64,000 nt of DNA, taken from Streptomyces sp. NBC_01707 (lineage in GTDB: Bacteria; Actinomycetota; Actinomycetes; Streptomycetales; Streptomycetaceae). The DNA is taken from the NCBI RefSeq assembly GCF_041438805.1, contig NZ_CP109190.1:3348001-3412000 (forward strand), written 5' to 3'. The notes under the pieces were generated by a model that was given only the letters and a program-made list of their open reading frames with translations, had not been told where the DNA came from and made no database searches. How positions within the stretch are numbered: position 1 is the first letter of the stretch; each line of letters opens with the position of its first letter. A program made the position numbers and the translations under genes. Positions 15,699 to 64,000 of the stretch are shown piece after piece.

Positions 15699-17492
15699 CT
15701 AGGAGACCGGCTGCGACCCTTCCTGGGCCGTCCCTGCCCCAGGGTTGAGGGAGCAGATCCGGAGCGCGTCCGCGCGGGCCTCGGCGAACGTTTCTCGGAC
15801 GGAGTCCTCATCCCTCCCCCAGGCTCGAGCAACTGTCTGCGCCTGCGGGCCAATACGCCGCTCGACGGCGGGGCGCGAAAGCTCTTCCGTGTAGAGGTCC
15901 TCGAAGTCCCAGCGCCACGAGCCGCGCAGTTTCGCCGCGCTCGGATTCGTGACGACCTCGGACCCGTCCGGGGCGTACACGGCTGGCCCCGCCTCCCACA
16001 CCCAGGCACGCCGCGGCGTCTGCGAACGCACGGACTTCAGCGCGCTGTCCGCACTGGCCCCATCGCCGAAGGTGCCGATCCACCCGTCGCTCGTCATCCT
16101 CTCGACGTGCACCGAGCCACCGTGCTCGCGCACCCAGCGCTCAGCCGTCCCCTCGGCGTCGTCCAAATCCCAGAAGCCGATCCGCTGCGCACCGATGTGC
16201 GCGACGTGCACCGCCCGACCACCGTCACGCTCGGGGCCGTTCTCCTGCGACGCCGCACGAGCGGGCGGCGTGAAGCCCATGACCCGATCGATCGTCACCA
16301 GGGCGGCCGTGTGCGCCGTCTCCAGCAGGTGCCCGTACGTGTCGGAGGTCGTCGTGATCGACTCGTGCCCCAGGCGCCGCTGCACGTACGTCAAGCTGTG
16401 CCTGTCCGACAGCAGCGCCGCAACGTGCGAGTGCCTCAGGTCATGGATTGTGGGGAACTTCCACTGCGGCAGCACCCCTCGCTTCTTGGCCTCAGCGACC
16501 CCTGCCATCCACCGGTCGTAGAACGTCGAGTAAGGGAGCCGGCCGCCGCTGCCGTCGTGGAAGATCAGGTCGTCCTTCCCCAGCCCGGCGACGCCATGGT
16601 CGAGAAGCTCTTGCCAGAGTCCGGCCGTGATCTCGACCGTCCGTCGCCCCGCCTTCGACTTCGGCGGTCCGAGACACCATTCCTCGCCCGGCACCCGCTT
16701 CCACGCCCGGGTGACGCGCAGCTCGTACTCGCCGGGCCGGGGATTGCGGGCATGCCGCGCCGCGAGCGCGCTGATCTCGCCCCACCGTAGTCCGCTCCCG
16801 TACGCCGTCCGCACGAGCATCCGATCACTGGGGCGAGGGAAGCACTCGACGAGACCGGCGATCTCTTCAGGAGTCATGAACTCCATGTCGTCGCTCGACT
16901 CGTCGTCGCCGATGCCCCAATCGTCATTGCTGGGGAGCCGGGTCAGGTCACACGGGTTGCGGTCTCGAAGCGGCGGCTCGGCAACTACGGCTTCCTTCAG
17001 GACTGACGACAGCAGCCCATGCAGACCCCGCAGCGTCTCCGGCGACATGTCCTTTGTCTTCGACCCGCGCTTGACCTTCGTCTTCAGCATCTTGTTGACC
17101 CACGCTCCGACCGTCGCCTTGCTGAAATGCTCGGCAGATCGGATGTCGCAGTTGCCGAAGGACGGGAACATGTACATCTCCAGCGCACGAATGCGCTGTT
17201 GCTTGTACCGCTTGCTCGCGGTGCGATTCTCGACGGACTCAACTGCCCAGCGGTCGAAGCGATAACGCAGCTCATCCGCAGCTGCCGGGTCGATGTAGCC
17301 CTTGCCCTTCACCCAGCCAGGGGGCCAGTGCTGCCTGGCCTCGTCAACCGCGTCCCTAAAGACCTTCGCCGAGTCCTCATCGTCGAAGCGTTCGGTCTGT
17401 TGCTCACCAGTCCTCACACCCCCTTCGCGCCACCGCACCTGGTAGCTGGAGACCTCCCCAGCCCTGTTCCTACGCGCAACAAGGTTCGCCAT
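15699..17492 (-). CDS. int: tyrosine recombinase/integrase with C-terminal extension
   Basis: A 597-residue protein from ATG 17492. An AP2-like N-terminal and SAM-like core-binding region occupy about 1-200. The catalytic domain shows R236 (GLRWGEIS), H350-x-x-R353 (IHDLRHSH), H376 (LGHES) and Y386 (SDTYGHL). It integrates and excises a mobile element at an attachment site. Typical actinomycete integrases end about 40-50 residues after the tyrosine; here a further 170 residues follow in frame, including two WDL/WVR-type strands and RGSWRWDFEDLY, of unknown role. Tandem repeats GTGCTCCCACG/GTGCTCCCATT lie immediately upstream. No tRNA target is visible nearby. Confidence 0.9.
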   Translation of the reverse strand: MANLVARRNRAGEVSSYQVRWREGGVRTGEQQTERFDDEDSAKVFRDAVDEARQHWPPGWVKGKGYIDPAAADELRYRFDRWAVESVENRTASKRYKQQRIRALEMYMFPSFGNCDIRSAEHFSKATVGAWVNKMLKTKVKRGSKTKDMSPETLRGLHGLLSSVLKEAVVAEPPLRDRNPCDLTRLPSNDDWGIGDDESSDDMEFMTPEEIAGLVECFPRPSDRMLVRTAYGSGLRWGEISALAARHARNPRPGEYELRVTRAWKRVPGEEWCLGPPKSKAGRRTVEITAGLWQELLDHGVAGLGKDDLIFHDGSGGRLPYSTFYDRWMAGVAEAKKRGVLPQWKFPTIHDLRHSHVAALLSDRHSLTYVQRRLGHESITTTSDTYGHLLETAHTAALVTIDRVMGFTPPARAASQENGPERDGGRAVHVAHIGAQRIGFWDLDDAEGTAERWVREHGGSVHVERMTSDGWIGTFGDGASADSALKSVRSQTPRRAWVWEAGPAVYAPDGSEVVTNPSAAKLRGSWRWDFEDLYTEELSRPAVERRIGPQAQTVARAWGRDEDSVRETFAEARADALRICSLNPGAGTAQEGSQPVS

Positions 17493-54022: not shown

Positions 54023-55129
54023 TCAGCGCTCGGATGCCGCCAGCTGCCCGCACGCTCCGTCGATCTCCTGGCCGCGGGTGTCCCGCACCGTCACGGGCAC
54101 CCCGTGGGCGGCGATCGCCTCGACGAAGGCCTTCTCGTCCTCGGGCCGCGAGGCCGTCCACTTCGAGCCGGGCGTCGGGTTCAACGGAATCAGGTTGACA
54201 TGCACGCGCTTGCCCTTGAGGAGCCGGCCGAGCAGGTCACCACGCCAGGCCTGGTCGTTGATGTCGCGGATCAGCGCGTACTCGATGGAGATCCGGCGGC
54301 CGGACTTCTCCGCGTACTCCCATGCCGCATCGAGCACCTCGCGCACCTTCCAGCGCGTGTTCACCGGCACGAGCGTGTCCCGCAGCTCGTCGTCCGGCGC
54401 ATGCAGCGAAACTGCGAGCCGGCACTTGAAGCCCTCGTCGGCGAAGCGCAGCATGGCCGGCACCAGGCCCACGGTGGAGACGGTGATCCCGCGCTGCGAC
54501 AGGCCGAGGCCGTCCGGTTCGGGGTCGGTCAGCCGGCGGATCGCGCCGACCACCCGCTTGTAGTTGGCCAGGGGCTCGCCCATGCCCATGAAGACGATGT
54601 TGGAGAGCCGCGCAGGCCCGCCCGGCACCTCTCCGTCGCGCAGCGCCCGCATACCGTCCACGATCTGGTGGACGATCTCCGCGGTCGACAGATTGCGGTC
54701 CAGACCGGCCTGCCCCGTCGCGCAGAACGGGCAGTTCATCCCGCACCCGGCCTGCGACGAGATGCACATCGTCACCCGTTCCGGGTACCGCATGAGGACG
54801 GACTCGACCAGCGTCCCGTCATGCAGCTTCCACAGCGTCTTACGGGTGGTGTCGTCGTCACAGCTGATGTGCCGGACCACGGACATCAGGTCGGGGAACA
54901 TCGCCTCGGCGAGCTTGTCCCGCGAACCGGCCGGGATGTTGGTCCACTCCGCCGGGTCGTGCGCGTACCGCGCGAAGTAGTGCTGCGACAGCTGCTGCGC
55001 GCGGAAGGGCTTCTCGCCGATCGCGGCGACGGCTTCCTTGCGCTCGGCGGGCGTGAGGTCGGCGAGGTGCCGCGGCGGCTTCTTGGCTCCGCGGGGCGCG
55101 ACGAAAGTGAGTTCTCCGGGCTTAGGCAT
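54023..55129 (-). CDS. rlmN: 23S rRNA/tRNA adenine-C2 methyltransferase RlmN
   Basis: A 368-residue radical SAM enzyme from ATG 55129. The CxxxCxxC cluster motif (CGMNCPFC) lies near residue 124, followed by [15 protein letters not shown] and the GMGEPLANY motif. The C-terminal [12 protein letters not shown] carries the conserved methyl-carrying cysteine. It methylates A2503 of 23S rRNA and A37 of some tRNAs. It is the last core gene before the second accessory block. Confidence 0.95.
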
Positions 55130-55248
55130 GGTTCCTCCAGTGTTGCAGACACGCCGTGGTGGCAGAGGCCTTTGCCAGGTCAGGACGGGTGAGGTGCATA
55201 GACGACCGGTCGTCGTTGGTCGTCATTAGTCGACGTCGGCGACCCTTT

Positions 55249-55281
55249 GACGGCCCACAGACGGCCCAGAGACGTCCCAGC
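55249..55281. repeat. three tandem 11-bp GACGGCCCACA-type units
   Basis: GACGGCCCACA, GACGGCCCAGA and GACGTCCCAGC follow each other here. The first 19 bp (GACGGCCCACAGACGGCCC) recur exactly at 55857-55875. The iteron form resembles integrase arm-binding sites. Confidence 0.5.
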
Positions 55282-55359
55282 GATTCCGAGGGACAGTGAC
55301 CGATTACACGAGAGAGAGGGTGCGCGCACGGCGTCCCGCCGGGACCTAGAATCGAATAT

Positions 55360-55701
55360 GTGTCCGAAAACCTCTCTCGTCTGGATCGCCTGCGCATCGT
55401 GCGCGAGTGGCAGGCGTACCAGCTCGGCCGAACCGATCGGACCATCGCCGAACTGGAAGAACGCGAGGCCGCAGCCGCCCGGGCAGCACGCACCCTGCCG
55501 CCGCCGGCACCCGACTGGAAGCTCTCCCTGCAGCGCGCCGGCGGCACGTCCCATGCCGACGCCGTCCACACGGGAGACTGCGGCATGGGCGGCAAGAGAA
55601 CGAAGTCGATGACCCGGGAGCAGGCCCTGCGTGCGCTCACGGAAGACGGCATCACGGCCTGCCCCTACTGCCGGCCGGACAGAGAGCTTGGAGTGCTGTG
55701 A
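55360..55701 (+). CDS. DUF6233 family protein
   Basis: A 113-residue protein from GTG 55360. The N-terminus (SRLDRLRIVREWQAYQL) is helical. The C-terminus has HTGDCGMGGKRTKSMT, then ALTEDGITACPYCRPD, a Cys/His arrangement that could hold zinc. The family (recalled as DUF6233) is abundant in Streptomyces accessory regions and its function is unknown. It is flanked by the two exact copies of the 19-bp repeat, suggesting that it travelled as a unit or marks an integration scar. Confidence 0.7.
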   Translation: MSENLSRLDRLRIVREWQAYQLGRTDRTIAELEEREAAAARAARTLPPPAPDWKLSLQRAGGTSHADAVHTGDCGMGGKRTKSMTREQALRALTEDGITACPYCRPDRELGVL

Positions 55702-55856
55702 ACCGCGGACCGTTGGAGCAACAGCCCGGTCTCCGGCTCCTGAAGCGCTGGTATAGAGCCACCCATCCGCGGGATGCGGCGTCGCTCCGCAATATGCCGG
55801 AGAGCTGCGTGGTTGTGGGTGTCATTGGCCGTTGGCGGTCATCGTCGGCCCCCGTC

Positions 55857-55875
55857 GGACGGCCCACAGACGGCC
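55857..55875. repeat. second copy of the 19-bp direct repeat
   Basis: GACGGCCCACAGACGGCCC, identical to 55249-55267 and 608 bp away. Weaker similarity extends upstream in both copies (CGTTGG, GTCAT). Confidence 0.5.
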
Positions 55876-55929
55876 CGGAGGAAGGCCAAGCGTGCCAAGA
55901 AGGCTTTGACGGATATGCCGCAGGAGACG

Positions 55930-56550
55930 TCATCCGGTCGTCGGGCGGCCCACCAGAAGATCGCTCATTTCGATCATCGAGCGCCAGGCCGCCCTGCGTC
56001 GCTGCTCGCTCTGGGTACTGTCCAGGACGCTCTTCACCTCCTCGGCAACGCGGAACCGGTACAGCGCAAGCTCCGCAGTGCGCTGGGTGGGCTGGAGACT
56101 GTCCCAGAACTGCTTCATCGTGGCCCACTCGTCGAGGTCGGGCAGGTGGCCCCAGTCGGCAACGCTGTGGGTTGCCGGACCAGATCGAAGTGGAGCGCCG
56201 CTGCGGAGGTTGAGGACCTCGCCCCAGGCGTCTTCTGGGATGCCCCTGCGGGTGACGTACCAAGACTCGGGCGATCCCGTCCTGCCAAGCGTCGTAGCCG
56301 TGGCAACGCCAGCCCTCCAGGCGGGCCAGTACTGCATGGAGAGGGTGGGCCGGACGGCGATGCGCACCTCGTTCTTGTCGTCCCATGAGGACAAGCCGTT
56401 GTCGTCGACGTTGTCGGTGTCCTGCAACCAGACCACAGGACCTTCAAAGAGGTCATGGGGTGCACGGTGGCACTGTGGGGTGATGACACCCAAGGAGCGG
56501 ATCTTGTCCCAGCCGTCCGGGTTGGTGAAGTGGTAGAGCGTTCCTGTCAT
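55930..56550 (-). CDS. possible ADP-ribosyltransferase-like hypothetical protein
   Basis: A 206-residue protein from ATG 56550. The start TLYHFTNPDGWDKIRSLGVITP, followed by GPVVWLQDTDN and KNEVRIAV, resembles the HFT...GL..P..VWLT opening of small ART-superfamily or DarT-like proteins, where the histidine contacts NAD. I cannot identify a secure catalytic glutamate, and the C-terminal half (WDSLQPTQRTAELALYRFRVAEEVKSVL) is helical and unfamiliar. A toxin-like or nucleic-acid-modifying enzyme is possible but unproven. It lies in the same accessory block as the ABC-3C operon. Confidence 0.45.
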   Translation of the reverse strand: MTGTLYHFTNPDGWDKIRSLGVITPQCHRAPHDLFEGPVVWLQDTDNVDDNGLSSWDDKNEVRIAVRPTLSMQYWPAWRAGVATATTLGRTGSPESWYVTRRGIPEDAWGEVLNLRSGAPLRSGPATHSVADWGHLPDLDEWATMKQFWDSLQPTQRTAELALYRFRVAEEVKSVLDSTQSEQRRRAAWRSMIEMSDLLVGRPTTG

Positions 56551-56827
56551 GCCTGGAGTGTGGCGTGCCGGAGTGCCCCTTCGTCAGCTGGCACCGGCGC
56601 CTAAGTTTCCTCGGGTGATCAGTACGGGCAGACCGATTGTCAGCCCGAGCGGTGACTGAGGTGAGACGCCGCGGTGGTCATTCTGAGTGTCGTAGGTGCC
56701 CAGCGCCGGTACTGCATGTCATCAGGAGTGATCAGCGTCACAGGGGGAGATCTGGGTTTCATTGCCGGATCGCTGCCGTGCCGGGACCGAGGGGTGAAGG
56801 CTCGAACCTCGTAAAGGAGCATCGCGG

Positions 56828-57787
56828 ATGACGACCAGCACCTCGTGGCCAATCCAGCAGCAGATCAAGCCCAGGCCCCCCGAGCCGTATCCCTTCGTCG
56901 GGGCGGCACTGGAGGGGCACCTGCTGGCGTACGTAGCCGTGAAGCGCAGCAAGGGGGGCGACATCCCGATGTTCGCCTTTGAGAGCGGGGGCGCCGAGGA
57001 GTGCGGCCTGATGGAAATCCGTCCCGACGGGACCGTTGCTCCCGAGATCGCAAACCTCTCGCCCACCAAGTTCGTCACGCTGAACGATCCGGCTCTCCGC
57101 CAGGACCCTGTCGGCCAGCCCGGTCCGCTCCGGTCCCCCTCTGGGCCTGTCCCCGCCCCTGTGCTGCGCACTGCCCGTGCCCTCGCCGCGCGGCAAGCCG
57201 CCGCGGCCGGGAACGGGCGCTCGGTCGAAGCGTTCATGACCGAGGTCCTGGGGTTGTGGCGCGGCGCACGATGGCAGGAGCCGGTCTCCACCGCCCTGTT
57301 GGGTGACTGGGTTGGCTCCCTGCACACCGATGGCCGGGTTGGTCCCGGCGCCTTGGAGTACCTCAAGGCCGAGACCCGGGTACTCCACCGGCAAATGACC
57401 CCCTTGTGGGAGCGCAAGGTCAACGGCAGACGACTGTGGGGCCTGGATTTCGCCCTCGGTGACGGTCTGACGGTCTACGACGTCGTCGCTGGCGGCCCAG
57501 ACCCGTACGAGATGCTTGCCGGTACCGTGCCCGACGACCCGCGGGTGGCAACGGTCCTTAACGACCTCACGCCGGCCGAGCGTGCCGTTGCGATGGCCTG
57601 GGCCGACTCGCAGGTCACCAGCTGGACCGAGGCGGCATCCAGCATTATGGCGCTCGCTCCAGCGCAGTTCACCGGCCTCGACCCGGCCGCACTGGGCGAA
57701 CGAGTCCGCCGCAAACTTAAGCGGCTCGGCGCCCGGCACACCGCCCTCGCCGCCGCGGCCGCCGCCCAGAGGTGGGAGCGGGCGTGA
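56828..57787 (+). CDS. hypothetical protein of actinomycete integrative-element type
   Basis: A 319-residue protein from ATG 56828 with AAGGAG 8 bases upstream. The N-terminal third is a mixed strand region, the middle has alanine-rich helices (RTARALAARQAAAAGNGRSVEAF), and the last 30 residues (VRRKLKRLGARHTALAAAAAAQ) are basic and helical. No known catalytic motif. It is coupled to a small membrane protein gene (GTGA overlap), an arrangement common in conjugative or integrative elements. Function unknown. Confidence 0.55.
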   Translation: MTTSTSWPIQQQIKPRPPEPYPFVGAALEGHLLAYVAVKRSKGGDIPMFAFESGGAEECGLMEIRPDGTVAPEIANLSPTKFVTLNDPALRQDPVGQPGPLRSPSGPVPAPVLRTARALAARQAAAAGNGRSVEAFMTEVLGLWRGARWQEPVSTALLGDWVGSLHTDGRVGPGALEYLKAETRVLHRQMTPLWERKVNGRRLWGLDFALGDGLTVYDVVAGGPDPYEMLAGTVPDDPRVATVLNDLTPAERAVAMAWADSQVTSWTEAASSIMALAPAQFTGLDPAALGERVRRKLKRLGARHTALAAAAAAQRWERA

Positions 57788-57966
57788 CCGTGACCACCCT
57801 GCTCCTGGGCCTGCTGCTCGGCATCGTTACCCTGCTCGTCGGCGCCGGGGTCCTAGTCCTACTCCTCCACCGCCCCGCCTGGTGCGCCCCGCTCGCCGGG
57901 GCCCTCGCCACGATGATGCTCGTAGCCACCGTTACCGGGCTGCTGGTCGCTGTCACCCGCGGCTGA
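57784..57966 (+). CDS. small two-helix membrane protein
   Basis: GTG 57784 overlaps the stop of the preceding gene as GTGA and gives 60 residues: two hydrophobic helices (TTLLLGLLLGIVTLLVGAGV, and the later ALATMMLVATVTGLLVAV) joined by a short HRPAWCAP loop. It resembles the tiny Spd-type membrane proteins of Streptomyces plasmids in size, but identity cannot be claimed. Confidence 0.55.
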   Translation: MTVTTLLLGLLLGIVTLLVGAGVLVLLLHRPAWCAPLAGALATMMLVATVTGLLVAVTRG

Positions 57967-58183
57967 CATCCCCCCTCCCCCGGCGGACCGACGCCTACCA
58001 GTTCCGCTGGGGGACCTGTTGCGCCTGGATAACTACCTGAGAGCACCTCAGGCTCTGCAAGCACTTGACCCGGATGTGTCGGCATTGCATCCAGAGCAGC
58101 GCAGCTCGGAGTCCTAGAACCCGACTCCCATGCGCGAAGGCCTGCCGCATATGCGATCAAGCCGGTAGCATCCCGCAGGGGTG

Positions 58184-58201
58184 AGCTTGTCGTTACAAGC
58201 T
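58184..58201. promoter_or_regulatory. perfect 7-bp palindrome upstream of the ABC-3C operon
   Basis: AGCTTGT (58184-58190), loop CGTT, ACAAGCT (58195-58201). Direct repeats GTTAC lie at 58192-58196 and 58202-58206. It ends 26 bases before the first gene. A possible TAGCAT -10 is at 58166-58171, which would place it in the leader as an operator or RNA hairpin. Confidence 0.5.
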
Positions 58202-58227
58202 GTTACGGCAGGGCCGAAGGGGTGGGC

Positions 58228-59430
58228 ATGGCGGAGCCGGTAGAGAATCTGCTAGAAGCTCTCGCAAGGATGGAGAGTGAAGAGACTGGAACCCGAACCT
58301 TCGCACGTTACCAATGGCAGGCCAAACAAGCGGTACGGCACTGGCTCACATGCTTGAAATCCGACAGTGCCCCCATCGCGATCATTTGCGAGAAGCTCGA
58401 AGATCTAGCCATTATCTACCGTGATTTTGTGCGATTTGCGCAGCTAAAAACTCGTGATCGTGGGTCGTGGAGTGCGAACGCAACTTGCGACAAGGGCCAT
58501 GGAATTGATTCGCTTATTCGCGCATACAAGGGTGCGCGCGAGGTCGGCGTTCACGAAAACTCTGCATTTGAACTGTGGCTCGAAGGACCCATGTCGGATC
58601 TTAAAGAAACTGTTAGTTTCTTCGAGAACCCTACGACTGCACCTAGCGCACTTCGCACCAAGATGGTCACGCTGGGTCTTCCTCGAGGCCACATAGACGA
58701 TTTTCTCGGCCGTCTATTCATTCATGTCAAGCAGCCATCGCGAGCACACATCGATGCCGTCATCCTTCGGGAGATGGCTGCACTTTGGCCAGGCCAGTCA
58801 ATACCCGAGCTAGAGGACGTGTACACGCGGCTCCTCGAAGGTGCCTCAGCAGCACAGGCAGGCGAGCCTCCAAATGGCGTAGTGCGCCGCCTCGTGGCTG
58901 AGTGCGTCGCGTCTCCTGACGAACCAACTGTGCCCGATGATCTAGCAGTTCATTTCCTGAGCAGATCGCAGATAACGTCGATGACTCCACCTCTGGCTAG
59001 CGAAACCGATCAAGACCTACTGGAACGCATGTCAGCTGGCGAAATAACCTCCATGCTGGAACTTAAGATGCGTCGCGCCGGCGTCAGTCCATCCGTGCTA
59101 CAGCAAGCTCAGGACTTGCGCGCGCAGGCAGATATATCCAGGCAACTCCTCCTCGCCAGTCGCTCCGACGTTGACAGCCAGTTCGCGAAGCTAGACACCA
59201 GAATTTTGACTGTTGCGCGCGCAATCGCAGACAAAGCAAGTTTGAATTCTGCCACCAATCCTGTAGCCGCTGCACGACCCGCCGATTACATCAGCGCAGA
59301 ACTACTAAGCAATCCGGGCATTCTTGGTCAGCTTGATAAGTCCGACCTATTTGAGGGAGACGGACTTGAGCTCTACGGATATTTGTGTCATCTGTCGGAT
59401 GCGTGCCGATTCCCATGGAGAGCGGCATGA
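58228..59430 (+). CDS. ABC-3C effector: DUF4297/Cap4-type PD-(D/E)XK nuclease
   Basis: A 400-residue protein from ATG 58228 (AGGGG upstream; GTG 58222 is less likely). The N-terminal 90 residues fit the DUF4297/Cap4 nuclease: GTRTFARYQWQ (Y29, W30, Q31), the acidic CEKLEDLAIIY (E55, E58, D59) and the QLK motif FAQLKTRD (Q72, K74). This is the PD-(D/E)XK core. The rest is helical, with acidic LLSN-type segments that probably contact the partner proteins. In this class of system the nuclease cuts DNA once released by the ATPase. The gene is clearly less GC-rich than the flanks and is ATGA-coupled to the next gene. Confidence 0.8.
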   Translation: MAEPVENLLEALARMESEETGTRTFARYQWQAKQAVRHWLTCLKSDSAPIAIICEKLEDLAIIYRDFVRFAQLKTRDRGSWSANATCDKGHGIDSLIRAYKGAREVGVHENSAFELWLEGPMSDLKETVSFFENPTTAPSALRTKMVTLGLPRGHIDDFLGRLFIHVKQPSRAHIDAVILREMAALWPGQSIPELEDVYTRLLEGASAAQAGEPPNGVVRRLVAECVASPDEPTVPDDLAVHFLSRSQITSMTPPLASETDQDLLERMSAGEITSMLELKMRRAGVSPSVLQQAQDLRAQADISRQLLLASRSDVDSQFAKLDTRILTVARAIADKASLNSATNPVAAARPADYISAELLSNPGILGQLDKSDLFEGDGLELYGYLCHLSDACRFPWRAA

Positions 59431-59993
59431 ATAGATCTCTAGACGTACGGGAAACGATTCCGCGTCACAAGTTTCGTGCGACACCTGAGGCCGAAACACG
59501 CGTGCTTCTATTGATCGATGGGTTCAGCCACAAGCCGAGGGGAATCGGGCGATGCCTTGAGGGCCGCGTAAAGCTGGCGAAGCTGGACTTCTTGCTGCGC
59601 TATCCAAAACACTTAAGTCGAGTCCTTGAGAAGCTTGGCGTAGAAATTCAGCGTCCAGAACTACTTGATACGGATGCGCCGCTCGACTCACGGATGATGC
59701 GATACAAGTATGGGCCCTGGGATCCTTCTTACTACGCAGTTCTGGGCTCTCTAATCGGTCGGGGCCTGGTCAGAGTAGAACCTCTGGAAAGCGCTAACGG
59801 CCTCGGCTACTCTACAACCGCAATAGGAGCGGATCTGTCGGAGAGTTTGCGGGACGACGAGAGTTTCTATGTAATCGATAGCAGGATCAAGCTACTTCGT
59901 AGGCATCTGGATAAAAGCGGATCCACCCTGAAGAAATATCTGTATGAACTTCCCGAGGTGGCCGACTCTACTTGGCACGAGGAGTTGACGTGA
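59427..59993 (+). CDS. ABC-3C middle component (winged-helix)
   Basis: A 188-residue protein from ATG 59427, which overlaps the nuclease stop as ATGA; GGAG lies at 59417-59420. The core KLAKLDFLLRYPKHLSRVL is followed by RMMRYKYGPWDPSYYAVLGSLIGRGLVRV, the winged-helix signature of the small middle component in ABC-3C loci, which bridges effector and ATPase. Codon 63 is TTA (59613-59615), a rare codon in Streptomyces read by the bldA tRNA, so translation may be tied to development. Its stop overlaps the ATPase start as GTGA. Confidence 0.8.
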   Translation: MNRSLDVRETIPRHKFRATPEAETRVLLLIDGFSHKPRGIGRCLEGRVKLAKLDFLLRYPKHLSRVLEKLGVEIQRPELLDTDAPLDSRMMRYKYGPWDPSYYAVLGSLIGRGLVRVEPLESANGLGYSTTAIGADLSESLRDDESFYVIDSRIKLLRRHLDKSGSTLKKYLYELPEVADSTWHEELT

Positions 59994-61900
59994 ACACCAG
60001 AAATGTTCCCTCACGCAGCCACACGCTTATGGTGCTCCACGTGGACTTCGTCGGTGCCAGGCGTTCAGTTGCATTGAAATCAGGGCTCAATGTGGTTCAT
60101 GGAAACATCACCACCGGAAAGACGACCTTCGTGCGCTTGCTGCGGGCACTCCTGGGTACCGTCCCCTCAGGCCTTCCTTCCGAGACGGACGCTATCAGTG
60201 ATATTCGAGCAGAGTTGCGCCTTGGAGGAAGGGAATGGCTCGTAAGTCGCCCTCTAGTAGTCACGCGCACTGCGCCTGTCGATGTAGCTGAAAAGTTCGA
60301 AACAGTAGATTCGGAGCCTGCCGCGTTCCGCGTGCCGGCCGTAGGGTCGAAAGCTTCGTTTGGGCGGTTCCTGCTCGAGCAGACCGGGATCCCTGTCGTT
60401 TCAGTACCGCAAGCGAGGTCGAAACCTACCGAGGGTCTAACGCCAGTAACCATCACGGACTGGCTGGGCTACTGTGTAATCACAGGCGATGAAATCGACT
60501 CTCAAGTATTCGGCCACCTGCACCCATTCCGCGATCAAAAGCGGCGATGGGTATTTGAGCTTATATATGGCCTTTATGATGCACAGGTGGCACGCTTGGT
60601 TGCCGATCTCAAAAGGATTGACTCACAAATCAACTCAATTGAGAGAGAGGGAGAGCTACAAGAGAAATTTCTCGCGGAGACGCCTTTCGCCGATCGGAAC
60701 GTGATCGCAGATCGTGTCGCGGAAATTGATGCTTTGCTCGCGGCCAGTGAATCTGACGCTGCGACCGTTGCGACGAGTGTTATCGAGAGTCTTGATGTTG
60801 GTGAACTTCGCTCCGATCTACTGAGTCGACGATCGGAGGCGAGGAAGGTAGCTGAGGATATTCGTCGAAACGAGGCACAGGTCGGTGACCTACGCGACTT
60901 GAGCGAGCAGCTCCAGAGTCAGTTTTCGCGCTTGACTAGAGCTGTCATATCCGACGAATGGCTTGTTGACTTTGACTTTATCGTTTGCCCAAGGTGCGGC
61001 AACGACGTGACTCCTGCGCGATCGACGGACGATTGCTGCTACCTCTGCTTGCAACAGCCACGCCCCAGCGCAACAAGGGAATCCTTCCTGGCCGAACAGG
61101 ACAGGATTGTCGGGCAGATCCAGGAGACAGAATCGGTCGTGGCTTCCAGAGAGAAGAGCTTGGAAGCACTGCGTTCCCGATACGCAAGCCTCACTCAGCA
61201 GGAACACGTACTAGCAACGCAACTCAATGGACGTACAGAGTCTTTCATCTCTGACAACGCTACAGAAATTCAGTCTCGCGCTGCCCGCCGTGCTTATTTG
61301 ATGGCGGAAAAGGCAAAGTTGGCGGACTTCGCACTCCTCGTCGATCGCTTCAAGCGGACAGCACAAACTAAGCTAGAGCTAGAAGAGAGGAAGTTGACAA
61401 TCCAAGATGCAATCGCGGAGCGTGAATTTGGTGAGTCGACTGCCGAGGTCAAGATTCGTGCACTGGAGGAGAAGCTCCTCTCCTATCTAACCAAACTCAA
61501 TATCCCTACTTTCAGTGAGGATCTGAGTGTGGTAATTAACCGAAAAACATACCTGCCCGAGATCAGTGGCCGCACGTTTGATGAGCTGTCGAGTCAAGGC
61601 CTAAAGACCCTCGTCAACGTGGCCCATTCGTTGGCTCATCATGCCGTTGCTATCGACCTAGACCTGCCACTACCTGGACTCCTGGTGCTAGACGGCCTTT
61701 CAGCTAATGCCGGTCGCAAGGGCTTCGATGAGGATCGAATCCACGACATGTATCGACTCCTAATCGAAGTAGCTGCGGAGTACGGTGACCGGTTGCAAAT
61801 CATCGCCGTGGATAATGATCCTCCGTCAGAATTCTGGGGAGATCTGGAGGATAGAGTAGTCCTTCACCTCACCCAGGAAGATAAGCTCGTACGCTTCTAG
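59990..61900 (+). CDS. SMC/Rad50-like ABC ATPase (DUF3732 type) of an ABC-3C system
   Basis: A 636-residue protein from GTG 59990, overlapping the previous stop as GTGA with GAGGAG at 59979-59984; the frame from 59972 is an extension. Walker A GNITTGKTT begins at residue 38. Two long coiled-coil arms (about 195-325 and 360-500) flank a tip holding four cysteines, C333-C336 (CPRC) and C350-C353 (CYLC), a zinc-hook-like element. The C-terminal head has a modified signature SSQG near 534, Walker B LLVLDG with D568, and VDNDP in the switch position. It senses invading DNA or DNA ends and controls the nuclease; that role is inferred from the family. Confidence 0.85.
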   Translation: MNTRNVPSRSHTLMVLHVDFVGARRSVALKSGLNVVHGNITTGKTTFVRLLRALLGTVPSGLPSETDAISDIRAELRLGGREWLVSRPLVVTRTAPVDVAEKFETVDSEPAAFRVPAVGSKASFGRFLLEQTGIPVVSVPQARSKPTEGLTPVTITDWLGYCVITGDEIDSQVFGHLHPFRDQKRRWVFELIYGLYDAQVARLVADLKRIDSQINSIEREGELQEKFLAETPFADRNVIADRVAEIDALLAASESDAATVATSVIESLDVGELRSDLLSRRSEARKVAEDIRRNEAQVGDLRDLSEQLQSQFSRLTRAVISDEWLVDFDFIVCPRCGNDVTPARSTDDCCYLCLQQPRPSATRESFLAEQDRIVGQIQETESVVASREKSLEALRSRYASLTQQEHVLATQLNGRTESFISDNATEIQSRAARRAYLMAEKAKLADFALLVDRFKRTAQTKLELEERKLTIQDAIAEREFGESTAEVKIRALEEKLLSYLTKLNIPTFSEDLSVVINRKTYLPEISGRTFDELSSQGLKTLVNVAHSLAHHAVAIDLDLPLPGLLVLDGLSANAGRKGFDEDRIHDMYRLLIEVAAEYGDRLQIIAVDNDPPSEFWGDLEDRVVLHLTQEDKLVRF

Positions 61901-62156
61901 TCGCACATACGATCTTTCTTCCCGATGAGCCGGAAACGTCTTAAGTCGCGGAACGCCCTGCAATACGCAGCTGGGTCTGGTGTAGGGCCGCACGGACTGC
62001 CCTGGGTGTCCGTCGGTATGTTGGCCGTAGCCGCGCACCCGTGCTGTGTGAAAGCCGTGAAGCGGCTGAACACGCAGCACGGAAGCAGCGCTGATGTGTG
62101 GCCGGACGCCATGGGACGCTTGGCACCATAGGGGTGGAGACGTGAGAGGAGCCCAA

Positions 62157-62603
62157 GTGTCGGAGGCCAGTCCGCGCGGAACCTACCTGGTCATCTCGGA
62201 GGCTCTGCGGAAGCGAATCGAAGAGGGCGCGTTCGTCGACGGCCTGCCCTCCGAGGCAGAACTTGCGGACGCCCATAGTGTCTCGCGGAACACGATTCGT
62301 CGTGCGCTCAAGGCCCTCGAAACCGAAGGTGCACTTGAGTCTGTGCCCGGGGTCGGCTGGCGCGTCCCGCATGGCGGCGATCGGCGGCCCCTCGTGGAAC
62401 GGATGATCTCCGTGATCGAAGACGACTCGCTCGCGGTGGGGGACGCCTACCCGTCGGAGGCGAGGCTCTGTGAGCGGTTCAGCGTCTCGCGTACCGCTGT
62501 GCGACGTGGCCTTGCTCAGATGGAAGGAACAGGATTGCTCCTCACGGTTCACGGCAGGGGGCGTACGGTGCGTGCCCTCCCGGCTTCCGCCGGCCAGCCG
62601 TAG
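62157..62603 (+). CDS. GntR-family regulator with two winged helices
   Basis: A 148-residue protein from GTG 62157 with GAGGAG at 62146-62151. Two GntR-type winged helices follow one another: FVDGLPSEAELADAHSVSRNTIRRAL, then GDAYPSEARLCERFSVSRTAVRRGL. There is no large C-terminal effector domain, as in the KorSA-like and related regulators of integrative elements. It lies just before an HD-domain gene on the same strand and may control it and the element's transfer genes. Confidence 0.85.
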   Translation: MSEASPRGTYLVISEALRKRIEEGAFVDGLPSEAELADAHSVSRNTIRRALKALETEGALESVPGVGWRVPHGGDRRPLVERMISVIEDDSLAVGDAYPSEARLCERFSVSRTAVRRGLAQMEGTGLLLTVHGRGRTVRALPASAGQP

Positions 62604-62614
62604 TCTTGGTCGCC

Positions 62615-63181
62615 ATGGGACTGAATGAGTGGGCGCACTCGCTATCCGAATCGCTGCTGTCGGACCCGCTGCCCCGGAGGTGGGCGCACTCCCTCGGGGT
62701 CGCCAAGCGGGCTCGGGCCCTTGCTCCGGTTCTCGGCGAGGACGCGGAACTCCTGGAAGCTGCCGCTGTGCTCCATGACGTCGGGTATTCGCCCGCGCTG
62801 GCCGTCACGGGCTTTCATCCGTTGGACGGCGCCCGGTTCCTCCGCAAGCAGGGGGCAGACGAACGGGTCGTTCGCCTTGTGGCTTATCACTCCTGCGCCG
62901 TCCTCGAAGCTGAGGAACGCGGACTCCGAGAAGAGCTTGAGAGCGAGTTCGAGCTTGAGCGCCCCGAGCTCGTGGACGCCCTTGTGTTCTGCGACATGAC
63001 GACGACGCCGGACGGCGTGGAGACCACACCATCCGAGCGGCTGGACGAGATCGTGAAGCGGTACGGCCCGGACACCATCGTGGGCCGCTTCATCCAACGG
63101 GCGGCCCCGGAAATCCACGCAGCCGCAAGACGAGTCGAGGGGCGGCTCGCGCTGGTCAAGGCCGCCGATCAGCCGATGTAG
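62615..63181 (+). CDS. HD-domain phosphohydrolase
   Basis: A 188-residue protein from ATG 62615. The metal motif is H...HD...D: WAHSLGVAKRA, AAVLHDVGYSP, GFHPLDGARFL, AYHSCAV and the final D in FCDMTTTPDG. This is a small HD phosphohydrolase acting on a nucleotide or similar substrate. It follows the GntR gene by 11 bp and converges on the NUDIX gene with a 13-bp overlap of stops. GntR, HD and NUDIX genes in this order are familiar from actinomycete integrative elements. Confidence 0.85.
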   Translation: MGLNEWAHSLSESLLSDPLPRRWAHSLGVAKRARALAPVLGEDAELLEAAAVLHDVGYSPALAVTGFHPLDGARFLRKQGADERVVRLVAYHSCAVLEAEERGLREELESEFELERPELVDALVFCDMTTTPDGVETTPSERLDEIVKRYGPDTIVGRFIQRAAPEIHAAARRVEGRLALVKAADQPM

Positions 63182-63642
63182 GGCTCACGCCGTGAGTCGT
63201 CCAGGCCGTGCGTGATGCGCAGCCGCATGGACGGGTGGATGTCGAGGCCATCGAGGTCCGCTGGATCTATCCAGCGGACCTCTTTCGATTCGCTGCTGGT
63301 ACGTAGCGAACCACCGACCGGACGAGCGCGGAAGCAGATCGAGAACTGCTGGCGCACCTCGCCGTCGTCGTACGCGATCACGTGGTGCGGGTCGGTGTAG
63401 AGACCCACGACGCTGTCGACCACCACAGCAATCCCGGTCTCTTCCGCCACCTCACGGGCGACGGTGTCGGCGACGCTCTCTCCAATATCGTGACCACCGC
63501 CCGGCAGTGCCCACAGATTGTTGTCGGTCCTGTGGATGAGGAGTAGTCGTCCACTGTCATCCCGGACGACTGCCGTGACCGAGGGAACGACCGAGTTTGC
63601 CTGGGGGGCCGACGGGTCGTTGTAGTGGTCGATTCGGCTCAT
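63169..63642 (-). CDS. NUDIX hydrolase
   Basis: A 157-residue protein from ATG 63642. The NUDIX box is visible: GGGHDIGESVADTVAREVAEETG, preceded by NNLWALPG and followed by IAVVVDSVVG. It hydrolyses a nucleoside diphosphate linked to another group; no specificity motif is clear. NUDIX genes of this type (nud) accompany pra and related regulators in pSAM2-like elements. Its ATG overlaps the stop of the next gene. Confidence 0.9.
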   Translation of the reverse strand: MSRIDHYNDPSAPQANSVVPSVTAVVRDDSGRLLLIHRTDNNLWALPGGGHDIGESVADTVAREVAEETGIAVVVDSVVGLYTDPHHVIAYDDGEVRQQFSICFRARPVGGSLRTSSESKEVRWIDPADLDGLDIHPSMRLRITHGLDDSRREPYIG

Positions 63643-64000
63643 GTGCCCTGGCCTCCGATGTCGTCTGGCTTGGAGATGGGCCGGGCGGACTCCCAGACGC
63701 GTTCCACGCTCTCAGCGTAGGTGTCGAACAGCTCTCCTCCTGGCACGCGTTGGAGGTGCAGGACTGGGGCCATGTACGCGCCGACGCCGTACAGGTGACC
63801 GTTCGCCAGCATCTCGTCGTCCGCCCTGTAGATCGAGTTGTAGAGCGTTGTGGAATGAAGGCGGAACTCGACCCCCGGGAGCCCGAACAGTGAGCCGTAG
63901 TTGAGCAGGGCGTTCCGAATCTTGCTGGCCATGGCGGGTCCGAGTCCCTCGTCCGACCCACGTGTTGCAACGGCGGCGCAGTCCGGATCCCCGAGCATGA
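63639..64000 (-). CDS. DUF5919-type XRE regulator (C-terminal part, runs off the right edge)
   Basis: About 120 residues ending at 63639, overlapping the NUDIX start as ATGA. The sequence LGDPDCAAVATRGSDEGLG, then GVEFRLHSTTLYNSIYRADDEML and PVLHLQRVPGGELFDTYAESVERVWESARP is the conserved C-terminal domain (DUF5919-like) of regulators that usually start with an XRE helix-turn-helix. The DNA-binding part should lie beyond base 64000. It is co-transcribed with the NUDIX gene. Confidence 0.75.
   Translation of the reverse strand, partial: MLGDPDCAAVATRGSDEGLGPAMASKIRNALLNYGSLFGLPGVEFRLHSTTLYNSIYRADDEMLANGHLYGVGAYMAPVLHLQRVPGGELFDTYAESVERVWESARPISKPDDIGGQGT

Follow-up and report, generated by a model that had tools for sequence, protein, structure and literature searches.

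A putative Cap4-type Lamassu operon as predicted cargo of an actinomycete integrative and conjugative element in Streptomyces

Whether a short, GC-poor operon in a Streptomyces chromosome encodes a new kind of conflict system or a known one, and how it came to lie where it does, is the question raised by a locus of Streptomyces sp. NBC_01707. The operon occupies positions 58222–61900 of the window, by which we mean the whole 64,000-nucleotide stretch of DNA analyzed here (contig NZ_CP109190.1, positions 3,348,001 to 3,412,000 of the forward strand), and consists of three intact open reading frames (ORFs) on the + strand, lmuA, lmuC and lmuB. A first-pass annotation made from the sequence had read these genes as an ABC-3C/Lamassu-like system acquired by transfer and had suggested that they may define a distinct subtype. 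Our overall explanation, which we hold with a probability of roughly 85%, is that of a type II Lamassu with a Cap4-type nuclease, in which LmuB would act as sensor and LmuA would be released, and which would be carried by an actinomycete integrative and conjugative element (AICE).

The three genes are tightly coupled. The first, lmuA, starts with GTG at 58222 (an ATG at 58228 is also possible) and ends with the stop at 59430, encoding a 402-amino-acid protein; lmuC, for a middle component of 188 amino acids, extends from ATG 59427 to the stop at 59993 and overlaps lmuA in an ATGA; lmuB, for an SMC/Rad50-like ATPase of 636 amino acids, extends from GTG 59990 to the stop at 61900 and overlaps lmuC in a GTGA. 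Both overlaps had been noticed in the first-pass annotation, which placed the operon at 58184..61900; its end stands, while positions 58184–58221 are a leader that precedes the lmuA start. For each of the three proteins the best PADLOC model is a Lamassu model, as the earlier family assignment would have it: PDLC03848 for LmuA (E = 5.1e-15, across residues 25–397), PDLC03872 for LmuC (E = 2e-12, with the 202-amino-acid frame from 59385 as query) and PDLC03862 for LmuB (E = 1.6e-76, residues 17–636 of the 642-amino-acid frame from 59972). LmuA additionally matches the Pfam family Cap4_nuclease (PF14130) with 32.7 bits against a cut-off of 26.2, which bears out its initial description as a DUF4297/Cap4-type nuclease. 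The operon has a G+C content of 0.542, compared with a mean of 0.689 (standard deviation 0.024, minimum 0.652) for stretches of the same size taken up to position 58200 of the window, and a third-position G+C content of 0.54–0.57 in the lmu genes versus 0.92 in the chromosomal neighbor rlmN; the reported drop in GC relative to the surroundings (54% versus 69% elsewhere in the window) is thus real.

Relatives of the operon show similarly tight packing. After removal of two second copies from genomes already represented (L017 and L018, copies of L002 and L004), lmuC adjoins lmuB in all 20 relative loci, in one of them (L021) as two frames, and a lmuA relative is present in 19, so the three genes are normally linked, as the earlier reading required. 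LmuB relatives are rare: at E ≤ 1e-20 they occur in 16 of 295 genus genomes and, with a profile of the close clade at E ≤ 1e-40, in 3 of 396 phylum genomes, the own genome being counted in both. A scan of GTDB contigs returned five closer relatives at 47–61% identity from Streptomyces, Actinomadura, Micromonospora, Amycolatopsis and Pseudonocardia, the closest named one being that of Streptomyces. No LmuB relative was found at E 1e-5 among 50,697 phage records, and 26 of 72,556 plasmid records gave LmuB matches (17 named Streptomyces, one [Kitasatospora]). Seven of the matching plasmid records were opened for neighboring genes. Five of them, from Spirosoma, Rhizobium, Methylocystis and two Streptomyces, have a gene annotated as a 'dsDNA nuclease domain-containing protein' before lmuC; in two, both from Streptomyces, a protein kinase gene stands in the place of lmuA, an effector exchange as expected for ABC-3C, and one of these kinase plasmids also carries a gene annotated 'ABC-three component system middle component 2'. 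The relatives and the opened records from Spirosoma, Rhizobium, Methylocystis and Streptomyces preserve the order lmuA-lmuC-lmuB. Together, the Lamassu model matches, the Cap4 match and the linkage across relatives identify the operon, at the level of sequence, as a predicted three-gene Lamassu (type II, ABC-3C, DdmABC-like) with a Cap4 nuclease, i.e., as a member of an already known kind.

The residues expected for nuclease activity are largely conserved. In an alignment of LmuA with 19 relatives, from which L036 was excluded for want of a full frame, 18 of 20 rows have all of E57, D61 and K76, and 19 have K76; the rows that fail, L033 and L035, are frames that do not have the usual N-terminal part. 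The first-pass annotation had named E58, D59, Q72 and K74, numbered from ATG 58228, which are E60, D61, Q74 and K76 in the 402-amino-acid reading. Of these, D61 and K76 are upheld; two rows have threonine in place of E60, and Q74 is variable, which makes the PD-(D/E)XK set E57/D61/K76 the better one. Searching the PDB with single sequences yielded nothing convincing, and profiles were needed: the LmuA profile matched a single chain, 8zue_A, named 'Anti-bacteriophage protein A' (E = 2.3e-7, residues 13–96), and for LmuC, which had been proposed to be a winged-helix protein, the best profile match was only a MarR regulator (E = 0.36). The RMMRYKYGPWD motif described for LmuC is present, and its YKYGPWD part is conserved as Y-[KR]-Y-G-P-W-D in 20 of 21 rows, the remaining row reading YKYRPWD.

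LmuB displays the Walker A motif GNITTGKTT, the signature S-Q-G (SSQG), the Walker B motif LLVLDG and two cysteine pairs, CPRC at 333 and CYLC at 350, separated by 13 residues; the previously listed four cysteines, SSQG and LLVLDG are therefore all found, and the SMC/Rad50-like assignment agrees with the PDLC03862 match and the Walker motifs. A PHROG of unknown function also covers the protein (E = 7.4e-25). Pfam returned only matches below cut-off (best AAA_23, E = 0.0054), and an NCBIfam scan of the three lmu proteins gave nothing above cut-off. A profile of 14 LmuB proteins matched PDB chains 9hqu_A (E = 1.7e-14), 9uxl_A (7e-5) and 9ny5_D (1e-4), which we take to stem from Lamassu structure papers. 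These chains are all named DUF3732 proteins, and they alone bear the name: Pfam gave no DUF3732 match to the three lmu proteins at E ≤ 1, and the earlier label of a DUF3732-type ATPase is not retained.

Is the cysteine tip what sets this operon apart, as had been proposed? CPRC plus a second CxxC appears in all 21 LmuB rows of a narrower alignment. In a comparison of 30 rows, which excludes L015 (the same locus as L036, with LmuB in two frames and Walker B read as IES), two CxxC are present in 27, from Actinomycetota, Bacteroidota and Alphaproteobacteria, Spirosoma, Rhizobium and Methylocystis included; the others are the two further LmuB proteins of this genome (CVFC and CPLC) and one neighboring protein that is not LmuB-like. 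The four-cysteine tip is thus a widespread LmuB form and not distinctive, and the idea that a zinc element separates the operon from Lamassu falls; the available text of PMC10586767 likewise describes a CPxCG-like zinc motif in many LmuB proteins, along with loss of the Walker-B glutamate (E to Q). That glutamate is missing from 29 of our 30 rows, with D-G in 11, D-S in 17 and D-Q in one, and the last row is not aligned. The 11 rows that combine D-G with S-Q-G form a single actinomycete clade (support 99/99) in a tree that excludes the second Spirosoma candidate of L117, which is not LmuB-like; the placement of L040 and L041 is unsure because of long branches. The distinct subtype once suggested therefore holds in part: the D-G plus S-Q-G combination marks a supported clade, whereas the cysteine tip and the missing glutamate are mostly shared. 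Since this combination alone marks the clade, 'subtype' would be a fair term only for a sub-lineage within Lamassu.

The Rad50-like layout of LmuB could instead speak for a DNA repair or housekeeping complex of the Rad50/SbcC kind with no role in defence. Heptad-like periodicity and few prolines or glycines in residues 262–330 and 366–428, on either side of the tip, are a weak sign of coiled coil that segment 428–490 does not share. In the Rad50 zinc hook, each chain contributes a single CxxC at the end of its coiled coil and two chains share the zinc; LmuB has two CxxC per chain at its predicted zinc site. A repair complex is at odds with the patchy distribution given above, with the low G+C content, with the location on a mobile element described below and with the replacement of the nuclease gene by a kinase gene in two relatives, and we consider it highly improbable.

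Among characterized systems, the Vibrio DdmABC (Lamassu type II) comes closest in plan, sharing, as far as the available accounts go, the nuclease-middle-SMC-like gene order, the Cap4 domain, an SMC-like ATPase and the absence of the Walker-B glutamate. The available part of PMC12409362 places a Cap4 domain in DdmA and reports that DdmABC acts on plasmids and phages. LmuB of the window differs from the DdmABC type in its D-G rather than D-Q Walker B, its S-Q-G signature and its distant sequence. Several observations weigh against the explanation favored here. LmuA scores 54.7 bits on its PADLOC model, compared with 206 and 319 for the two other LmuA proteins of the genome, and LmuC scores 45.1 compared with 39 and 158; no ABC-3C model of Pfam or NCBIfam matches LmuC or LmuB, LmuC having no Pfam or NCBIfam match at all. 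The trigger is described from Vibrio DdmABC, and in the solved chain 9hqu_A the tip differs, with one CPMC at the place where the window protein has CPRC and CYLC. Taken together, the operon appears to be an ordinary, somewhat divergent Lamassu with an anti-phage or anti-plasmid role presumed from its family.

The context of the operon is the main addition to what the first-pass annotation offered. BLAST of the two ends revealed a 604-bp direct repeat that is 92% identical and perfect over its first 47 bp. The left 47-bp repeat (55110–55156, + strand) overlaps the first codons of a gene on the – strand at 54026–55129, which we take to be rlmN and whose 5' end is the integration site. The perfect right copy lies 25,643 bp away at 80753–80799 in window numbering, outside the window in adjoining sequence (L043, 16753–16799). 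A DUF6233 gene is found at both ends within the 604-bp repeat (55360–55698 and 81002–81340, the latter L043 17002–17340; 92% identical), and the second copy is followed to the right by genes that we presume to be cdsA, frr and pyrH. This right flank was matched at least in part in all 61 genomes searched, own genome counted. Loci were returned from 19 other genomes. In 9 of them rlmN is no farther than 1.5 kb from the cdsA-frr match, which represents the empty site; in the other 10, rlmN falls outside this flank, perhaps owing to a different insert, a larger gap or the end of a contig. In some genomes, matches resembling the 47-bp core several kb from cdsA point to further inserts at this site, and the available part of PMC9513070 reports that another strain has an AICE in its rlmN. 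Attachment at a tRNA gene was considered and rejected, as an ARAGORN search of the window and L043 came back without tRNA genes. Between the left repeat and lmuA, the left end of the element (55157–58221) holds the DUF6233 gene, ORFs at 55933–56550 (–) and 56828–57784 (+) and the lmu leader. The 206-amino-acid protein of 55933–56550, which starts with LYHFTNPDGWDKI, is by eye reminiscent of ADP-ribosyltransferase-type proteins and had no match in Pfam, NCBIfam or PADLOC.

To the right of the operon lies an AICE backbone with a close plasmid relative. Positions 62077–76833 match, in four pieces at 92–78% DNA identity, the circular 18,451-bp plasmid NZ_CP107792.1 of Streptomyces sp. NBC_00562, the closest plasmid; this homology begins 177 bp past the last base of the lmuB stop codon. 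First come a GntR regulator (62094–62603, +, 81% identical to the plasmid copy, with the plasmid match starting at 62157), an HD-domain phosphohydrolase (mdp-like, 62606–63181, +, 95%), a NUDIX hydrolase (nud/Pif-like, 63169–63642, –, 90%) and an XRE regulator (63645–64000, –, continuing into L043; 96–97%). Protein identities are 97% for DUF2637, 95% for GGDEF, 96% for RRQRL and the FtsK-like protein, 79% for Prim-Pol, 90% for YfjI/DUF3987, 70% for Xis and 62% for the tyrosine integrase (PF00589), which is encoded beyond the window at 75575–76840. According to the available text of PMC3218068, an AICE core comprises an integrase, a Rep or Prim-Pol and an FtsK-type Tra, and an mdp-nud-xre cluster occurs in several AICEs. 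The element has such an integrase, Prim-Pol and FtsK-like relatives of plasmid proteins so annotated, flanking attachment repeats with 47 perfect base pairs, and an empty site. Pfam found no FtsK match in it, and the NCBIfam TraB match, at 5.4e-6, was far below cut-off. AICEs of the pSAM2 and SLP1 kind and NZ_CP107792.1 resemble it in their integrase, Xis, Prim-Pol, DUF3987/YfjI, FtsK-like and GntR genes and in the HD-nudix-XRE cluster, with up to 97% protein identity. We interpret the operon, from these sequence features, as predicted cargo of an AICE-type element that measures 25.6 kb and is inserted between rlmN and cdsA; the low G+C content, the element ends and the circular plasmid relative agree with the acquisition by transfer inferred earlier, and FtsK-type transfer would probably let the element pass from one strain to another.

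NZ_CP107792.1 differs from the element in what it does not carry. A search of the plasmid gave no match to the lmu proteins. The 47-bp core had no hit in it and its integrase is a different one, so that it was rejected as a free form of the same element. It also lacks a C-5 cytosine methylase gene (PF00145) that is located in the element at L043:7009-8172, just before the Prim-Pol gene and between the last two plasmid-match pieces, and that constitutes a second cargo item. Elsewhere in the window, a tyrosine-integrase-like gene at 15702–17492 (–), 23% identical to the plasmid integrase over 16314–17351, perhaps belongs to a second integrated element.

How the operon would work can be sketched from its family: that LmuB senses, that LmuA is released and assembles, that the cell dies and that the element moves are all extrapolated from related systems. 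LmuB would be the sensor, with LmuC and the C-terminal part of LmuA keeping LmuA inactive on it. On meeting abnormal DNA of a replicating phage or plasmid, such as an end, a hairpin or a blocked fork, LmuB would bind ATP and close; given the glycine after the Walker-B aspartate, ATP hydrolysis would be expected to be slow or absent, and closure would then be a one-way switch that frees LmuA. Freed LmuA would assemble, its PD-(D/E)XK domain would cut DNA indiscriminately, and the infection would be stopped or the plasmid cured while the cell is sacrificed. An addendum to PMC12409362, as far as its text is available, cites three preprints for activation of the nuclease in a homotetramer of freed LmuA. 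Excerpts of PMC9455884 report that avcD and ddmC limit a Vibrio phage and doubt abortive infection as the sole mechanism.

The location at the edge of the regulator-nudix block of an integrated AICE raises the possibility that LmuABC mainly guards its own element against rival AICEs and plasmids, killing or handicapping cells that take up such rivals, with phage defence a side effect, which would be compatible with its Lamassu identity. AICE backbone genes adjoin Lamassu in 4 of the 20 relative loci: a gntR gene follows lmuB by ~0.35 kb in L028 and by 0.17 kb in L031 and precedes lmuA by 0.19 kb in the opposite direction in L026, and a NUDIX gene follows lmuB by 0.06 kb in L021. These four and the window spread over three LmuB clades. 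As 127 of the 291 genus genomes have the HD gene, most of them in one copy, such closeness is unlikely to be due to chance, although this is not a formal test. The reported action of DdmABC on plasmids points in the same direction. On the other side, 15 of the 20 loci, in stretches of differing lengths, have no backbone genes and one more (L022) has only a YfjI-like gene, and in 0 of 20 close AICE regions did ORFs match the LmuA, LmuB or LmuC profiles at E ≤ 1e-5. The bond between Lamassu and AICE is therefore loose, and sequence cannot separate a selfish module from general defence; we regard the selfish role as conceivable, at well under even odds. Decay into a non-functional cargo remnant is a further alternative, prompted by the decay signs of many AICE cargo genes in a Streptomyces population (available part of PMC9513070) and by short or split frames in some relatives (L033, L035, L036 and L021). 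The frames of the window are all full length, with conserved motifs and intact overlaps, and a remnant seems unlikely. We continue to favor a Lamassu carried as AICE cargo.

The absence of Lamassu from those 20 AICE regions also led us to reject their slot as a general Lamassu slot. The regions (L097-L116) carry varied AT-richer genes upstream of gntR, and the ORF nearest gntR has a third-position G+C content of 0.51–0.68 in 18 of 20. A PADLOC scan of 20 proteins from 15 of the 20 slots, with ORFs called mechanically, gave matches in 8 of 15 slots at E ≤ 1e-3 and in 6 of 15 at E ≤ 1e-40, namely Hachiman HamB, DarG, PDC-M36A, PDC-S73 with nSTAND3, NsnA/GmrSD and a PD-T4-6 type kinase; one of these six, L097, may be a generic kinase. 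In an imperfect control, whose set differed from the slot proteins in length and frame quality, 24 arbitrarily chosen chromosomal proteins from the window hit 10 families at E ≤ 1e-3 (best 8.5e-39) and none at E ≤ 1e-40, so that PADLOC hits by themselves are weakened as proof of a defence slot. Four long ORFs upstream of gntR (L108:3456-5360, L110:1539-2960, L113:1480-3057 and L115:1470-2963) had no PADLOC or Pfam match at E ≤ 0.001 and are candidate novel systems. The available part of PMC9513070 lists restriction-modification and AIPR genes as AICE cargo, and among the papers listed by a single search none showed a fixed AICE defence slot in its title or the opening of its abstract. We put forward, as a tentative idea that may well prove wrong, that in this AICE family the stretch from the left attachment end to gntR serves as a swappable slot for defence exchange, filled in each element by another AT-richer conflict module, of which Lamassu is one.

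Three complete Lamassu systems, belonging to different model groups, are present in the genome. The second lmuABC lies 12 kb to the left of the window (C1:3332606-3336034, L042:4606-8034) and matches PDLC03852 (LmuA, E = 1.2e-95), PDLC03871 (LmuC, 4.7e-47) and PDLC03863 (LmuB, 4.7e-149); its LmuA looks Mrr-like by eye. The third (C1:9321-12988, L044:9321-12988) lies 9–13 kb from the main contig end. Like the window copy, each is a complete lmuABC. Their LmuB proteins differ in their best models (PDLC03863 and PDLC03859 instead of PDLC03862), in carrying one CxxC each (CVFC and CPLC) and in their Walker B motifs, D-S in the second and D-Q in the third system. According to the available part of PMC10482375, the first and last 1% of the chromosome together hold 31% of the Lamassu systems in Streptomyces, a placement that the third copy fits; the window copy, at 3.41 of 9.58 Mb, has the central position that would be expected for element cargo.

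The operon adds a divergent actinomycete branch to Lamassu, and the occurrence of both LmuB tip forms, with one or two CxxC, in one genome makes a direct comparison possible. Its context outweighs the operon itself in importance: a Lamassu whose relatives act on plasmids is tied to a plasmid-like element with a close plasmid relative that lacks Lamassu, which renders cargo gain and self-avoidance testable, and a defined position is indicated at which further Streptomyces defence systems may be found. If the slot exists, elements of this AICE family would serve as natural vehicles for actinomycete defence systems and as a library of them, with undescribed systems located in the match-free slots. 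A plasmid-acting Lamassu on an element with a plasmid stage would then need self-avoidance, for which the four-cysteine D-G LmuB would be a candidate.

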